Positions 7,560 to 57,183 of a stretch of DNA of 64,000 nt are shown one piece after another. The translations under genes were made by a program, and so were the position numbers. Below the pieces are notes generated by a model that was given only the letters and a program-made list of their open reading frames with translations, did no database searches and was not told the DNA's origin. Each line of letters opens with the position of its first letter. The first letter of the stretch is position 1. This stretch comes from Sporomusa acidovorans (GTDB lineage Bacteria > Bacillota > Negativicutes > Sporomusales > Sporomusaceae): the NCBI RefSeq assembly GCF_900101845.1, contig NZ_FNAM01000002.1, positions 124,001 through 188,000 of the forward strand, written 5' to 3'.

Positions 7560-9110
7560 CTACCTCTGATCGGTTTCAAAAACAAGTGTTTTTATCACTA
7601 CAGGCACCACGGTTCCTCCTGCAATCGCCTTGCCGATATCAATATAATCCCCATCACAAACACATAACTGATCAATACAAATAATTTCGGTCTTCGGACA
7701 GAGTAAGTGCAATGTTTGCCCCAATACTTTTCCGTAATCTTGTTCAATGGCTACAATGATTGGCTGCCGGTATTCCGTTAATTCATTCCATACCCTGACG
7801 ATTGCCTTAGCAATTTCCTTAATTCTTCTAAACGAAAGATACTGTTGACTTGTCAGGCCAATTGCAAAACATTCATTTATCCCTTGCTCCAGATAATTGC
7901 CTACTGCATTTTTGATAGCCGTTCCTATCGAATCAGCAGTATCCGGAATCGTATCTATAAAAGGAATAATTACAGGAACATTTTTTAGCGGAAGTATATC
8001 GTTATCAACGTAAATAGTACTGCCGCTTACATCGACAGTTTGCGCACCTGCTCCTATAACTGTCGCCCGAATCGTTTCCTTAGGTTTAAGCAGTGTAAAA
8101 CTGCTGTTATGAAAAATCCGACGCAGCTTTTCCCCTAATAACGGACCCATATCGCCAAATTCAATCACATCGTCTAACGTATCTGCTCTTATATCATGAT
8201 AAATATAATCGGCAACTCCACCGGACGCCATGATGAAAGCAAGAGGGTAGTCAAGCCGCAAAGATTTTGTCATCAATAATTCTTGCGAAAGCAATGTTTT
8301 CTTTCCGACAAGATGATCCCTGATTACCTCTGCCATTCTCTCTGCCAGCGTGTGCAACGCAGACAGTTCGATCATGGTTCCCGGACACAAAGACAGACCC
8401 AAATGCCGGCAAATTTTTTCCATTGGCTTTGAAACATACGCAATCGTTTGTGTGGTTTTATCAAATTCAAGAAGTCTGCCGCCAATATTAATACAGCAAC
8501 TATCAATGACTTGGCCATTGCCAAATATTCCAATATTCGCCGTCCCGCCCCCGATATCAATATTGGCAACGACACAATGATTAAGGCGTGAATATTCAGC
8601 GGCACCGGAACCCTTGCCCGCTATCACCGATTCCAGGTTTCCACCGGCGGCAGCTACGACAAAATTTCCTACAAGATTAGCTATTTTCTGTGAGATACGT
8701 CTCGCGTTTTCTTTTTTTGCTGTTTCGCCTGTAATAATAACGGCACCGGTATCTACGTCCGAAGGAGCAATGCCTGCATTTTGATATTCTGAACTTATAA
8801 TTTTTGCTATTGCCTCTTCATCGACCAAGCAATCACCTTTTAGGGGGGTAAAATAAATATTGCTCTTATATCTCACTGCTTTATCCGTAATCTTTAGCCG
8901 GGGGACAAGTGAGCCCGGTGAAATATTTCGCACTGTCAAATCACTAACAATCATCTGCGTTGTTGTTGTTCCAATGTCTATGCCGACACTTTTGATCTTA
9001 TAGCTGCTATCGTCGTTCATTGCCATACTCCAAAACACAAGAGGCAAGCTATTTTCGACAAATGTGTTTCGAGATATGGAGGCAGCAGCCATAACCGGTT
9101 TTTCATTCAA
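7560..9110 (-). CDS. eutA: ethanolamine ammonia-lyase reactivating factor EutA
   Basis: Actin/Hsp70-fold ATPase that exchanges damaged cobalamin on EutBC. Phosphate motifs GIDIGTTTTQ and VANIDIGGGTANIGIF are clear, followed by a typical EutA C-terminal region. The first ATG (9110) overlaps the eutC stop and has AGGGGAAGG four bases upstream, but it adds about 30 residues before the family's usual start; the ATG at 9020 (MNDDSSYKIKSVGIDIG) aligns with known EutA and also has GGAG upstream. The protein is therefore 516 or 486 residues. Translationally coupled to eutC. Confidence 0.92.
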   Translation of the reverse strand: MNEKPVMAAASISRNTFVENSLPLVFWSMAMNDDSSYKIKSVGIDIGTTTTQMIVSDLTVRNISPGSLVPRLKITDKAVRYKSNIYFTPLKGDCLVDEEAIAKIISSEYQNAGIAPSDVDTGAVIITGETAKKENARRISQKIANLVGNFVVAAAGGNLESVIAGKGSGAAEYSRLNHCVVANIDIGGGTANIGIFGNGQVIDSCCINIGGRLLEFDKTTQTIAYVSKPMEKICRHLGLSLCPGTMIELSALHTLAERMAEVIRDHLVGKKTLLSQELLMTKSLRLDYPLAFIMASGGVADYIYHDIRADTLDDVIEFGDMGPLLGEKLRRIFHNSSFTLLKPKETIRATVIGAGAQTVDVSGSTIYVDNDILPLKNVPVIIPFIDTIPDTADSIGTAIKNAVGNYLEQGINECFAIGLTSQQYLSFRRIKEIAKAIVRVWNELTEYRQPIIVAIEQDYGKVLGQTLHLLCPKTEIICIDQLCVCDGDYIDIGKAIAGGTVVPVVIKTLVFETDQR

Positions 9111-9924
9111 CCTTCCCCTTATTCTTCAATATTTCTGCAAGCTTAGTACCACTCGCTTTACTATCAAGGATTGTTTTTACCAATGTCGCAAGATGTGCGC
9201 CTGCTTCTGCCGGCGGAGTACCGCCGCGGTGAATATTAGAAAGAATCGATCTGTCTGCTTCGACAGTATTCTCACTTGGACGGTAAATAAGATAAGCACT
9301 CATACTTTCTGCGGTAACAAGTCCCGGACGCTCACCGACAAATTCGACAATAACATCACAGTCAAGCAGCATGGCAATTTCATCTTGCACCGCAACTCTG
9401 CCATACTTTACAAAAAAAGGGGTTCCGACACTTAAACCCTCAACCTCGAGTCCTTGGATTAATGCCGCCATTGTATCTTCTGCATTTGCTTCAATTGCGG
9501 GAGCGCTTAACCCGTCAACAATAATGATTTGAACCTGTTTCCTTTTTTCGCAATTTTCCAAAACCAGTTTCTTTGACGCATCATCAAGTTTTCTGCCGAA
9601 AGCCGGTTTTTTTAGATACTCATCTTTATCCGATACCCTAGTCTTCGTTTTCATTAGGCAACAGCGGTTAATAAAATCGTCAGAAACCTCTAGCGCCACT
9701 GCATCTTGCGCCGCAGCATGACTCGCTAAAAAATCAAGAAGCGTAGCCGTTTTATAGCGTGTTCCGCACCGTCCAATGGCAATCCGGGCCGGTGTGGTTT
9801 TTTTCATTACTGCAAGCGCTTCCATACTACGGGGATTTTTAACAAATACCTTATTGGCGTTATTTAATTCAAAAACACAACCATTTACAGTCTTTTCGCC
9901 TTGGAAGTCTTCTAAATTGATCAA
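9103..9924 (-). CDS. eutC: ethanolamine ammonia-lyase small subunit EutC
   Basis: Small subunit of the adenosylcobalamin-dependent enzyme that splits ethanolamine into acetaldehyde and ammonia. 273 residues; typical segments are TPARIAIGRCGTRYKTATLL, FLASHAAAQDAV, IVDGLSAPAIEANAE and LVTAESMSAYLIYRPSE. The start is TTG with AGAGGGA seven bases upstream. It follows eutB by about 29 bases and overlaps eutA by eight. Confidence 0.95.
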   Translation of the reverse strand: MINLEDFQGEKTVNGCVFELNNANKVFVKNPRSMEALAVMKKTTPARIAIGRCGTRYKTATLLDFLASHAAAQDAVALEVSDDFINRCCLMKTKTRVSDKDEYLKKPAFGRKLDDASKKLVLENCEKRKQVQIIIVDGLSAPAIEANAEDTMAALIQGLEVEGLSVGTPFFVKYGRVAVQDEIAMLLDCDVIVEFVGERPGLVTAESMSAYLIYRPSENTVEADRSILSNIHRGGTPPAEAGAHLATLVKTILDSKASGTKLAEILKNKGKVE

Positions 9925-9953: not shown

Positions 9954-11315
9954 TCAAGTAAAGATGGACGCGTCACCGGCACTAGTAGTCAGAAAGCCAT
10001 TTTGCATAATACCATAGCTCTCCAGCCACCGCTCAAACTCAGACAATGGCCGCAGGCCAAGAATCTCTCGAATTGTCGCATCATCATGATAGCTGGTATC
10101 TTGGTAACTCAACATGCAGTCATCGCCGCCGGGTACCCCCATAAAATAATTGGACCCCGCCATAGCGCAAAGCATTGTCCCAATTTCTTGATCATTTTGG
10201 TCAGCCTTCATGTGGTTAGTGTAGCAAGGAGCTATTCCCATCGGGAGGCCATGCATTTTCCCCATGAATAAATCCTCAAGATCTGCTCTGATAACCTCAC
10301 GTCCGCTATAAATAGTTTCCGGCCCAATAAAACCGGAAACATTATTAAGCATAAATGGATGATACCGTCTTGCCAGTCCGTAGCAGCGTGCTTCGAGCGT
10401 CATTTCATCAACATCATGATGTTCATCTAATGAAATTTCAGATCCTTGCCCTGTTTCAAAATACAGGAAGTTCGGACCTTTAGATACACAGAGTCGTTGC
10501 GCCATTGCATAAGCTTCGTCAAGCATCGGAACCGTAATACCAAATGTACTATTTGCTGACTCTGTTCCGGCCAAACTCTGAAATACCAAATCGACCGGCA
10601 CACCTTTTTCCAATGCCTGCATTTGCGTAGTAACGTGGGCCAAGACACAGGTTTGTGTAGGAATTTTATATTTATTTACGAGTTCATGAAGAGCGTTTGT
10701 GATTTTGGTAAAATTCTCAATGTTATCCTCGACGGGGTTAACACCGATTACCGCGTCACCGGAGCCAAAGGACAACCCCTCTTTCGTAGAGGCTAGAATG
10801 CCTTCAATGCTGTCCGTAGGATGGTTTGGCTGATTGCGAAAGGCCAGCGTACCCGGACTTCCGATTGTAGTATTGCAGCTTGCCTCAACTCTAATTTTTT
10901 TAGCAGCATAAACAAGATCCATATTGGACATAAGCTTTCCAACAGCGGCAATCATTTCGCTCGTTAAACCACCACTTAAGGTGAGCAATTCACGTTGCTG
11001 CGTACCTGATTGCAAAATGTATTCGCGCAATTCACCAACAGTCATCAAGCTAATGCTTTTATATACACTGCTGTCAAGTCCGTCATAGATTGCGCGCGTA
11101 ACTTCATCTTTCTCATAAGGAATTACCGGATTCTCGTAAATATCCCGTAATGTTAGATTTGCAAGACAAAGTTTTGCAGCCACCCGCTCGGTAGCCGTTG
11201 TTGCGGCAATTCCGCCAAGAAAATCGCCTGATTTTTCTTCATTGGCCTTGGCGAGTATATCTCGTACAGATTTGAAATGAAATGTTGTTTTATTTACTGT
11301 ACATTTTAGGTTCAA
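9954..11315 (-). CDS. eutB: ethanolamine ammonia-lyase large subunit EutB
   Basis: Catalytic TIM-barrel subunit, 453 residues, exactly the length usual for the family. Typical blocks include LTSEMIAAVGKLMSNMDLV, NTTIGSPGTLAFRNQPNHP, GDAVIGVNPVEDN, FETGQGSE and MGKMHGLPMGIAPCYTNH. The start is TTG with GGGAGGG about seven bases upstream. First gene of eutBCAH; the leader (11418-11472) carries an apparent antitermination switch. No shell-protein genes are in the cluster, so acetaldehyde is probably handled in the cytosol. Confidence 0.97.
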   Translation of the reverse strand: MNLKCTVNKTTFHFKSVRDILAKANEEKSGDFLGGIAATTATERVAAKLCLANLTLRDIYENPVIPYEKDEVTRAIYDGLDSSVYKSISLMTVGELREYILQSGTQQRELLTLSGGLTSEMIAAVGKLMSNMDLVYAAKKIRVEASCNTTIGSPGTLAFRNQPNHPTDSIEGILASTKEGLSFGSGDAVIGVNPVEDNIENFTKITNALHELVNKYKIPTQTCVLAHVTTQMQALEKGVPVDLVFQSLAGTESANSTFGITVPMLDEAYAMAQRLCVSKGPNFLYFETGQGSEISLDEHHDVDEMTLEARCYGLARRYHPFMLNNVSGFIGPETIYSGREVIRADLEDLFMGKMHGLPMGIAPCYTNHMKADQNDQEIGTMLCAMAGSNYFMGVPGGDDCMLSYQDTSYHDDATIREILGLRPLSEFERWLESYGIMQNGFLTTSAGDASIFT

Positions 11316-11417: not shown

Positions 11418-11472
11418 ATAAAAAATAAAAGTGCTTACTCGAAGTTAATCTTCAAATAAGCACCATTGCTTT
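11418..11472 (-). promoter_or_regulatory. eutB leader: terminator overlapped by ANTAR-type antiterminator hairpin
   Basis: On the minus strand a terminator (GTGCTTA ... TAAGCAC with an inner GAAG/CTTC stem, 11431-11463) is followed by TTTTATTTTTTAT. Its 5' arm overlaps a second hairpin, AAGC-AATGGT-GCTT (11458-11471), whose six-base loop has A at position 1 and G at position 4, as in targets of ANTAR regulators such as EutV (reported motif AGCAANGRRGCUY; one position differs). The two structures exclude each other. About 115 bases separate it from eutB. A clear first (P1) hairpin was not found. Confidence 0.6.
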
Positions 11473-39619: not shown

Positions 39620-39716
39620 TGGCGGGAGCGTGTAGGAATCGAACCCACCCAGGACAGGTTAATGCCCCGCAAACGGTTTTGAAGACCGCAGAAGCCACCA
39701 GGCCTCATCCGCTCCC
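39620..39716 (-). tRNA. selC: tRNA-Sec (anticodon TCA)
   Basis: 97-base cloverleaf including an encoded CCA. The acceptor arms GGGAGCG and CGCTCCC pair, the anticodon loop is CTTCAAA, the TPsiC loop reads GGGTTCGATTCC and the variable arm is long, all as in selenocysteine tRNAs. It implies a selenoprotein machinery (SelA, SelB, SelD), but none of those genes and no selenoprotein gene is in the window. Confidence 0.95.
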
Positions 39717-39828: not shown

Positions 39829-39858
39829 TTGACAGTGCTCTGTACTATTTGCTATAGT
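39829..39858 (+). promoter_or_regulatory. sigma-70-type promoter of amtB-glnK
   Basis: TTGACA, 18-base spacer, TATAGT. The start site would be near 39865, giving a leader of about 200 bases. Confidence 0.7.
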
Positions 39859-39881
39859 AACAACATCAAGTTAATCCATTT

Positions 39882-39975
39882 AGGCAATGAAGCCTTCGCA
39901 ATAATATGCGAAGGCTTTTTCTGTCTGTTTCCGGACAAAGGCGTCCTGAAGGTTTACTCCTTTTGGACGCCTTTT
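39882..39975 (+). promoter_or_regulatory. amtB leader: two ANTAR-type hexaloop hairpins, each overlapping a terminator
   Basis: Hairpin 1 AGGC-AATGAA-GCCT (39882-39895) overlaps terminator 1 (AGCCTTCGC / GCGAAGGCT then TTTTT, 39891-39921). Hairpin 2 GGAC-AAAGGC-GTCC (39933-39946) overlaps terminator 2 (AAAGGCGTCC / GGACGCCTTT, 39937-39974). Both six-base loops have A1 and G4, the residues known to be recognised by ANTAR antiterminators. Formation of each small hairpin would block the matching terminator. No ANTAR gene is in the window. Confidence 0.7.
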
Positions 39976-40067: not shown

Positions 40068-41483
40068 ATGAAAAAGCTCTGGACTATTTTTACGGTTTGC
40101 TTATTGTTAATGCTTATCTTTGCACCAGCAGCCTTCGCTGATGGCGACACTCCGGCCGAAGCGGCCAAAATTGACACCGGCGATACCGCATTTGTTCTAA
40201 TCAGTGCTGCACTTGTTATGATTATGACCCCTGGTTTGGCCTTATTCTATGGCGGTATGGTACGAACTAAAAATGCATTAAGTACCATCATGCAAAGTTT
40301 TTTTGTTATTGGTCTAATTTCTGTCCAATGGGTTCTTTTCGGTTATTCCCTCGCTTTTGGCCCTGACATCAGCAGTTTCATCGGCGGCCTTGACTGGGTT
40401 GGCCTCGCCGGTGTTGGTCAGGAAGCCAATGCTGATTATGCCGCTACGATTCCCCATCTGGCCTTTATGATCTTCCAGGCAATGTTTGCCGTAATTACGG
40501 TAGGTCTAATCACCGGTGCTTTTGCCGAACGAATGAAATTTGGCGCTTTTGTTGTATTCGCCTTACTTTGGAGTACTTTTGTTTATGATCCTGTTGCCCA
40601 CTGGGTATGGGGTGTAGGCGGTTGGATACGTGAACTGGGCGTACTGGACTTCGCCGGCGGTACTGTTGTTCATATTATATCCGGTGTATCCGGTCTCACA
40701 ATTGCGCTTATGATTGGCAAACGCAAAGGTTATGGTTCTGAAGTCATGATGCCTCATCACTTGCCAATGACTGTTATCGGTGCTTCCCTCCTCTGGTTTG
40801 GCTGGTTCGGCTTTAATGCCGGCAGTGCGTTATCCGCCAACGGTCTTGCCGCCAACGCTTTCGTTGTAACCCATGCGGCCGCTGCTGCCGCCACTGTTTC
40901 CTGGGTGCTCACTGAATGGATTAATCATGGTAAACCGACCATTCTTGGTGCCGCCTCCGGTTGTGTAGCCGGTCTTGTAGCCATCACACCGGCAGCAGGC
41001 TTTGTCAGCCTTATTCCGGCAGTCATCATCGGTTTAGTCGCCGGCATTATCTGCTTCCTGGCCGTAGCTGTACTGAAAACCAGGCTCGGTTATGATGATT
41101 CCCTTGACGCATTTGGCGTACATGGAGTAGGCGGTACCTGGGGCGCTCTTGCCACTGGATTATTTGCCTCCAAGGCCGTTAATCCTGCTGGTGCCGATGG
41201 TCTGTTCTACGGCAATGCCAGTCAATTGACCACTCAGGCAATCGGCGTTGCTGCCAGTTGGGCAGTCGCTGCCATTATGACCTTCCTGATCATTAAACTA
41301 ATTGGTACTTTTATGGAAGTTCGTGCTACTAGCGAACAAGAAGTTCAAGGCCTTGATATTACCGAACACGGTGAGCGCGGTTATGCCTATCAGGATTTTT
41401 TGACAGGCTCGCCGATCGGCTTTGCCTCTTCTACAGGCATTTCTGCTCAGGAAACAGTTGCGAAAAAGACAACTCTCGCGTAA
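40068..41483 (+). CDS. amtB: ammonium transporter AmtB
   Basis: 471 residues with an N-terminal signal-like segment (cleaved near AAFADG) and eleven transmembrane helices. The twin pore histidines are in GGTVVHIISG and DAFGVHGVGGTWG; the Amt signature DPVAHWVWG and the FGWFGFNAGSAL block are present. AAGGAAGGGATG is upstream. Conducts ammonium into the cell and is gated by GlnK, encoded 150 bases downstream in the same operon. Expression appears controlled by the antitermination leader. Confidence 0.96.
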   Translation: MKKLWTIFTVCLLLMLIFAPAAFADGDTPAEAAKIDTGDTAFVLISAALVMIMTPGLALFYGGMVRTKNALSTIMQSFFVIGLISVQWVLFGYSLAFGPDISSFIGGLDWVGLAGVGQEANADYAATIPHLAFMIFQAMFAVITVGLITGAFAERMKFGAFVVFALLWSTFVYDPVAHWVWGVGGWIRELGVLDFAGGTVVHIISGVSGLTIALMIGKRKGYGSEVMMPHHLPMTVIGASLLWFGWFGFNAGSALSANGLAANAFVVTHAAAAAATVSWVLTEWINHGKPTILGAASGCVAGLVAITPAAGFVSLIPAVIIGLVAGIICFLAVAVLKTRLGYDDSLDAFGVHGVGGTWGALATGLFASKAVNPAGADGLFYGNASQLTTQAIGVAASWAVAAIMTFLIIKLIGTFMEVRATSEQEVQGLDITEHGERGYAYQDFLTGSPIGFASSTGISAQETVAKKTTLA

Positions 41484-41632: not shown

Positions 41633-42004
41633 ATGAGACCCATTACTAAAATTGATATTATTACCCGCCCGGAAAAACTTGAGGAACTAAAAGAAGCCAT
41701 GAATAAAATTGGTGTTACCGGTATGACGGTAACGCAAGTGTATGGTTGCGGCCTGACAAAAGGGCATACCGAGGTATACCGCGGCCAGGAATACAGCATC
41801 AACTTGGTTCCCAAGGTTAAAATTGAAATTGTCGTCTGCGAAGTACCTGTCGAAAGGGTACTGGAAACCGCTAAAGCAGCATGCAGAACCGGCAAAATTG
41901 GTGACGGCAAAATTTTTGTCTACTCTGTCGCGAACGCAGTGCGCATCCGTACCGGCGAAGAAGGCGATATCGCGATTGCCGATCCGGCAGATATACCGAA
42001 ATAA
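41633..42004 (+). CDS. glnK: P-II nitrogen regulator GlnK/GlnB
   Basis: 123-residue P-II protein. The T-loop runs KGHTEVYRGQEYSINLVPK with the uridylylation-site Tyr at position 54; the B-loop TGKIGDGKIFV and the start ITKIDIITRPEKLEELKEAM are typical. Adjacent to amtB, so the GlnK role of blocking the transporter in ammonium-rich cells is the likely one. GGGAGG lies ten bases before the ATG. Confidence 0.95.
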   Translation: MRPITKIDIITRPEKLEELKEAMNKIGVTGMTVTQVYGCGLTKGHTEVYRGQEYSINLVPKVKIEIVVCEVPVERVLETAKAACRTGKIGDGKIFVYSVANAVRIRTGEEGDIAIADPADIPK

Positions 42005-48122: not shown

Positions 48123-48182
48123 GTTTGCCTCAAGACCGGCACGCAAATCCCCTCCCCATCGCTCGTAGGTTATAACGGTGAT

Positions 48183-48350
48183 TGTCAAACAGGCAGTTCT
48201 TCTGACTTAGGATCATAGCTAATCTGCGCCTTCCCAAAATAGCATGCTATTTCAGTGGCTTTCTGCAGGTTGCTCCCCCTTACAGCGGCGGGACCGTGCC
48301 GGCTTCGAACCGGCTTCCCTATTAAGCCCAATTGGGCACCTGTTCCTATT
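48183..48350 (-). ncRNA. cobalamin riboswitch
   Basis: Minus-strand order: GGTGCCCAATTGGGC, the CCGG.GCACGGTCCCGCC region, GGGGGAGCAACCTGCAGA, the B12-box part AGCCACTG (48253-48260), GGGAAGGC, and GAAGAACTGCCTG. These are the conserved pieces of the cobalamin aptamer. It faces cbiL and the transporter genes. Confidence 0.93.
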
Positions 48351-48427
48351 TAGTTACTTAAATTGTATGATTAACGGTGAGAAAAGTCAAGCATATTATG
48401 ACGCTATGTCGGAACCTGCTGCAATTT

Positions 48428-56945: not shown

Positions 56946-57115
56946 CCGTTATACCTGAGAGATTTGCCCCTGCAGGCGGGGCTCCCCATCGGTGACACCC
57001 GCCGCGGCAGGTGTGCTCTCCAGAGTATAGTCCGGTTATAGTCCTTTTGCCTGAGAGTTTGACAAAGAACTTACTCCTTCGGCGCCGCAATTTTCGCGGT
57101 CTCTCCTATAACCAT
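56946..57115 (-). ncRNA. tandem glycine riboswitch
   Basis: Two aptamers in series on the minus strand. The first runs GGAGAGACCGCG ... GCGCCGAAGGAGTAA ... AACTCTCAGGCAAAAGGAC; the second CTGGAGAGCAC ... GTCACCGATGGGGAG ... AATCTCTCAGGTATAACGGAC. GGAGAG, GCCGA/ACCGA and CTCTCAGG are the conserved blocks. It should turn on gcv expression when glycine is plentiful. Confidence 0.96.
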
Positions 57116-57183
57116 CATCCCGAAATTATTTGATTGTTATTTTCATTCTAACAAGGAACAGGATTTGCTGTCAATACAAATTT

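Follow-up and report, generated by a model that had tools for sequence, protein, structure and literature searches.

Two hexaloop hairpins, each overlapping a terminator, in the amtB-glnK leader of Sporomusa acidovorans: a putative two-stage ANTAR attenuator

The closest described counterparts of the leader analyzed here are those of eutP in Enterococcus faecalis (EutV), nasF in Klebsiella oxytoca (NasR) and amiE in Pseudomonas aeruginosa (AmiR). The prevailing view is that ANTAR antitermination requires two closely spaced hairpins per terminator; the structure of EutV with RNA pointed to the single hexaloop as the unit of binding. In eutP the two loops are 24 nt apart (PMC3369931), and the linker between the hairpins is 5-12 nt in E. 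faecalis (PMC3369931) and 2-25 nt in curated sets (PMC8164766). Antitermination is abolished or drastically reduced by a 14-nt linker or by an additional 20 nt (PMC3369931, PMC8934654). Induction of E. faecalis eutP is lost when P1 is deleted and depends on both hairpins lying close together (PMC3369931, PMC8934654). According to the main text of PMC3369931, ammonium transporters and P-II proteins are among the known ANTAR targets, and Desulfotomaculum acetoxidans has 13 tandem ANTAR attenuator systems over six transcription units (Fig. 9C of that paper). In outline, that work already covers both tandem attenuators and the control of ammonium transporters by ANTAR proteins. Here we describe a leader upstream of amtB-glnK, found in a 64,000-nucleotide stretch of S. 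acidovorans DNA that was analyzed as a whole (the window).

Layout of the leader and proposed mechanism

A sequence-only reading of the window had proposed two A1/G4 hexaloop hairpins in front of amtB-glnK, each on a strong terminator of its own, and sequence and folding confirm this layout. The span it gave (39865-39975) otherwise fits; the promoter at 39829-39858 was left out. The features of the locus are as follows.

39829-39858 (+): promoter TTGACA-18-TATAGT with TG before the -10 box, sigma-A type, read from the sequence
~39865 (+): predicted transcript start, from the promoter position
39882-39895 (+): hairpin P1, AGGC[AATGAA]GCCT, with an ANTAR-type hexaloop at 39886-39891, from the sequence
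39889-39920 (+): terminator T1, GAAGCCTTCGCA/TGCGAAGGCTTT, stem 39889-39918 and then a T-tract, from sequence, folding and covariation
39933-39946 (+): hairpin P2, GGAC[AAAGGC]GTCC, with an ANTAR-type hexaloop at 39937-39942, from the sequence
39928-39931 with 39948-39951 (+): pairs of the P2 outer stem, of which the outer pair covaries
39937-39975 (+): terminator T2, AAAGGCGTCC...GGACGCCTTT, stem 39937-39974 and then a T-tract, from folding and covariation
40068-41483 (+): amtB, ammonium transporter (Pfam PF00909, E = 5e-134)
41633-42004 (+): glnK, P-II protein (Pfam PF00543)

Rfam also places a selenocysteine tRNA gene on the opposite strand (39624-39716, -), immediately before the amtB promoter. 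Elsewhere in the window there are a cobalamin riboswitch (48175-48358, -) and a glycine riboswitch (57029-57118, -).

The 3′ arm of P1 is contained in the 5′ arm of T1, and the 5′ arm of T2 takes in both the P2 loop and the 3′ arm of that hairpin. By sequence, P1 and T1 are mutually exclusive, as are P2 and T2. A1 and G4 are present in both loops (AATGAA and AAAGGC). The leader has a folding energy of -50.6 kcal/mol (z = -7.2), and no shuffled sequence folds equally well. Predicted energies are -4.4 kcal/mol for P1 vs. -18.7 for T1, and -4.0 for P2 (-7.7 including the outer stem) vs. -23.1 for T2. Thus, the terminators should win unless something stabilizes the hairpins.

In the broad sense this has the sequence features of an ANTAR-responsive leader: A1/G4 hexaloops on stems of at least 3 bp, hairpins that exclude a terminator, and an ANTAR encoded in the genome. 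It departs from the canonical arrangement in its P1-P2 linker of 37 nt, in a first hairpin that overlaps T1 instead of standing free upstream, and in having two terminators for one hairpin pair. The last point, that each terminator has its own hairpin, bears out what had been noticed from the sequence, a difference from the published targets with two hairpins and a single terminator (PMC3369931).

We consider it probable, at about three chances in four, that the amtB leader is a two-stage attenuator whose two single-hexaloop stages are run by a PdtaR-like ANTAR. By default, RNA polymerase would halt at T1, or at T2 after leaking through. An active PdtaR-like ANTAR, partnered by a PdtaS-like kinase, would bind the P1 hexaloop once P1 leaves the polymerase. 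Bound P1 would keep the 5′ arm of T1 paired, separating T1 from its U-tract. The same ANTAR would repeat this action at P2/T2, and amtB-glnK would be transcribed. Two stages in series would multiply their stop probabilities, so that little would leak through and the response to a single signal, presumably nitrogen status, would be steeper. Protein binding, read-through, the acting ANTAR, the signal and the independence of the stages are what we infer from the mutually exclusive pairs, the conservation of the loops, covariation, the retained RNA-contact residues, the co-occurrence of amtB with ANTAR genes and the lack of space for an upstream hairpin.

Conservation across Negativicutes

BLASTN recovered the leader in 22 of 41 relatives, where P1 loops read AA[TC]G.. 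and almost all P2 loops AA.G... A survey of the class covered 120 Negativicutes genomes, in 92 of which AmtB was located by protein. The upstream regions of 100 amtB-type genes were scanned for hexaloop hairpins that share their 3′ arm with a terminator, whatever the loop sequence; the regions were chosen via the AmtB protein and the scan made loop-agnostic in order to avoid bias. It returned 155 terminator-exclusive hexaloop hairpins, a count that is not of independent cases, since the genomes are related to one another. The first loop base is A in 129 and G in 22 (151/155), A2 is present in 147 and G4 in 149, while positions 5 and 6 are variable. At a stem length of at least 4, 99 hairpins have a 6-nt loop vs. 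19, 2, 2 and 7 with loops of 4, 5, 7 and 8 nt. The same scan of both strands of the whole window found 55 hexaloop/terminator overlaps, three with an [AG]A.G loop, and 100 shuffled leaders gave seven overlaps, none with such a loop.

The automatic scan mis-assigned T2 of S. acidovorans itself and missed some second modules; this T2 and others were assigned by eye. Two [AG]A.G modules are present in 54 homologous leaders. Against the two-stage reading, some leaders display one module only. At the level of sequence, the P1/T1 plus P2/T2 layout is conserved across the class. A pattern scan of 84,980 genomes placed the double element in Sporomusa, Pelosinus, Anaerospora, Lucifera and related Negativicutes. 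Most of the remaining matches (Reyranella, Chromatiaceae and others) resemble coding sequence by eye, and one in Nitrospira (L179) resembles a canonical dual hairpin.

The two terminators could be a plain unregulated tandem with hexaloops that arose by chance. Incidental alternative hairpins are indeed common in terminators (52 of the 55 in the window have other loops), but those bases of the loops that belong to neither stem hardly vary across the class, a strong promoter directly precedes the terminators, and the shared arm is doubly constrained, as described below. We regard a chance origin as barely credible. The sequence-only reading had named homologous leaders that keep the terminators and lose the loops as evidence against itself; conservation of the loops equals or exceeds that of the terminators.

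In 40 aligned first units, 95.7% of the T1 cells are paired with 31 two-sided changes; in 37 aligned second units, 93.3% of the T2 cells are paired with 111 two-sided changes. For each terminator, 0/500 shuffles scored as high. The columns that are shared with the hairpin (13-16) behave differently: T1 has 12 one-sided and no two-sided changes there, and T2 has 21 one-sided and five two-sided changes; all but one of the latter are at the outermost shared pair. Nearly all changes in shared columns are on the 3′ side of the terminator, where the arm drifts via G-U pairs. A 5′ arm fixed by the hairpin and a drifting 3′ arm are what is expected of mutually exclusive pairs. P2 covaries at its outer pair (GC 22, AU 9). 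The P1 stem is nearly invariant in the aligned first units and shows no covariation of its own.

Several further candidates were discarded. An ATAATA hexaloop within T1 was rejected as a third target, as it has A4 and is unconserved. A T1-P2 pairing (TGTC/GACA) is present in several leaders, not all, and a rule of order (GGC-type hairpin first, GAC-type second) is broken in other taxa.

Hairpins per terminator and their ANTAR readers

A clear promoter could be assigned in 76 leaders. In 73 of them P1 follows the -10 box by 13-29 nt, and the RNA ahead of P1 is only ~6-22 nt. With the -10 box so near, there is no room for a canonical recruiting hairpin before T1. An upstream candidate hairpin occurs in 4/90 first units vs. 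11/23 matches of the same model in other Firmicutes. Loop-to-loop spacing is 45-149 nt in 53 of the 54 two-unit leaders, with one outlier at 193 nt.

Leaders with a single module also exist, one of them within the window.

11421-11471 (-): single-module leader AAGC[AATGGT]GCTT overlapping one terminator, upstream of eutB-eutC-eutA (z = -4.9)
9954-11315 (-): eutB, of the ethanolamine ammonia-lyase operon
9103-9924 (-): eutC, of the same operon
7560-9110 (-): eutA, of the same operon

The sequence-only reading was right about the layout; it had overlooked such single modules and the missing partner space of the first hairpin. Other single-unit leaders lie at amtB paralogues (L116-L118) and, in the same genome, before a DcuC-family C4-dicarboxylate transporter (L196, C38:108723). 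The latter has three conserved homologues (L233-L235), and the dcuC loops read AACGGA, AATGAA and AACGTC. A single unit, GAGC[AATGAA]GCTC, before a sigma-54-dependent regulator (L194, C36:27454) has no homologue in 15 relatives and is unproven. A covariance-model search of the S. acidovorans genome returned the amtB leader, a degenerate copy and weak single modules. The degenerate copy (C69:2204, L190) is apparently a decayed double leader with a broken P1 stem, upstream of a sugar-transporter-like gene.

These observations bear on a second explanation, in which the leader is a canonical dual hairpin with a terminator inserted in its linker. P1 would recruit an ANTAR dimer that passes from P1 to P2, only T2 would be regulated, and T1 would be a weak or partly constitutive terminator, or one that is bypassed incidentally when P1 is bound. 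The A1 and G4 in both loops fit this explanation, as does the overlap of P2 with T2, which is like that of eutP and nasF. The canonical pair is plain in other Firmicutes beside the same hairpin type (e.g., L214, L218, L223, L227), and two hairpins are needed according to published work (PMC3369931). The two-hairpin requirement of E. faecalis also means that a single hexaloop may not suffice, which counts against reading the modules as autonomous. However, the linker and the class-wide spacing are far from the 5-12 nt of E. faecalis, T1 equals T2 in strength and conservation, and there are single-module leaders (amtB paralogues, dcuC, eutBCA). We therefore consider an inserted terminator unlikely. 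We favor single modules because there is no space for an upstream partner, the spacing is long and variable, and single-unit leaders exist. Each hairpin would govern its own terminator, as two single-hexaloop antiterminators in series.

ANTAR proteins were sought in the genome, their absence having been named in the sequence-only reading as evidence against it; two response regulators were found, and most relatives have at least one. The first is a PdtaR-like protein of 193 aa whose best PDB match is Rv1626/PdtaR (E = 1e-56), followed by EutV. The adjoining kinase gene carries GAF_PdtaS and HisKA_2 domains. The RNA-contact residues of EutV include Tyr164, which stacks on G4 (PMC8934654), and the PdtaR-like ANTAR retains EutV Arg142, Lys143, Tyr164 and Met172. 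The same four are retained in most relatives inspected, with Phe replacing Tyr in some. The second ANTAR is encoded in an ethanolamine locus (L004, contig C33, - strand, 6394 to 6013).

Across the class, an ANTAR is encoded in 104 of the 120 genomes, usually by a single gene, and amtB and ANTAR genes co-occur (Fisher p = 5.5e-9). Only two genomes (G018, G045) have amtB and no ANTAR match, and both bear the leader. They lend something to a third explanation, that the hexaloops are read by another RNA-binding protein or a small molecule, as does the fact that ANTAR binding at the leader is deduced from sequence. These genomes are only 88% and 87% complete, however, and the co-occurrence is otherwise strong. 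The hairpins agree with ANTAR RNAs in their loop rule (A1 and G4), the size of their loops and their target genes, and the leader matches no Rfam riboswitch. A reader other than an ANTAR is thus very improbable in our view.

Both amtB loops are G4-type and there is usually one ANTAR per genome, so the leader is best read as a low-leak series gate and not as a two-signal AND gate; most likely both gates read the same signal. The AND-type gating proposed from the sequence alone thus gives way to a series (multiplicative) attenuator.

The ethanolamine loci differ. The ANTAR encoded there has His at the EutV Tyr164 position in all 15 relatives with a second ANTAR of the eut-locus type (L257-L271) and in S. 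acidovorans, and A4-type loops (AATAGC, AATAGA, AATAAA, AATAAC, AACAAC, AACAGC) occur in 11/16 eut loci vs. at most 3/155 amtB-leader loops. In E. faecalis eutP, a change of G4 to A in either loop lowers induction (PMC3369931). A4/His164 vs. G4/Tyr164 is a possible protein-RNA specificity switch. In five leaders an A4 terminator unit is followed 120-139 nt on by a G4 unit.

L258, L259, L260 (-), L266 (-), L267 (+): A4+G4 leaders upstream of an ethanolamine permease gene

These permease leaders, which the sequence-only reading did not cover, are the best candidates for a possible true AND gate. We hold at even odds a joint reading in which Negativicutes have autonomous single-hexaloop modules, one to three in series, that fall into two specificities. 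The PdtaR-like ANTAR (Tyr164) would be the reader of G4 loops; for A4 loops it would be a EutV-type ANTAR that has His164 and, in those inspected, a changed Arg142. The A4+G4 permease leaders would be AND gates for ethanolamine and nitrogen need, and the G4+G4 amtB leader a tight single-input gate.

Comparison with known systems

Rfam has no match at the amtB leader at gathering level. A permissive search gave the Pseudomonas sRNA P11 (RF00625) at 34.0 bits vs. a gathering threshold of 70, and ar15 at 19 bits, also below threshold. P11 is identical to the second unit over GGACAAAGGCGUCCU...GGACGCC; it differs in belonging to another phylum and in an alignment that lacks the two-terminator layout. 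The P11 model holds the same GGACAAAGGCGUCC hairpin/terminator overlap as 39937-39971 of the window. P11 regulates a nitrogen assimilation operon with NirB, NirD and NasC (PMC12080996), and from the shared overlap we suggest that it may be a NasT-type ANTAR leader RNA of the nirBD operon in its terminated form.

Our literature search, which was thin on subscription journals and supplementary tables, found no description of leaders with one hexaloop per terminator, of their class-wide conservation or of the A4/His164 variant. T1 is conserved across the class and would, by our reading, be governable by one hexaloop only, which makes the question of one or two hairpins directly testable. Searches with dual-hairpin models can miss targets such as the eutBCA and dcuC leaders. 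The split between A4/His164 and G4/Tyr164, if true, would amount to a legible code for protein-RNA specificity and supply RNA engineers with natural AND gates.

The ANTAR and its neighboring kinase resemble mycobacterial PdtaR (Rv1626) and PdtaS in PDB match and domains. In actinobacteria, most ANTAR RNAs are found at ribosome-binding sites or at other places that have no terminator, and few are on terminators (PMC8164766). The nitrogen transcription units of D. acetoxidans likewise carry multiple attenuators; as described in the main text of PMC3369931, each of these systems was found by the dual-hairpin model and has a terminator that overlaps P2. The Sporomusa leader is like those of eutP, nasF and amiE in its short stems, A1/G4 hexaloops, the arm shared by hairpin and terminator, its nitrogen genes and a genome-encoded ANTAR response regulator. 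It is unlike them in that both hairpins are on terminators and the first has no upstream partner, in its long linker of variable length, and in occurring also as a single module.
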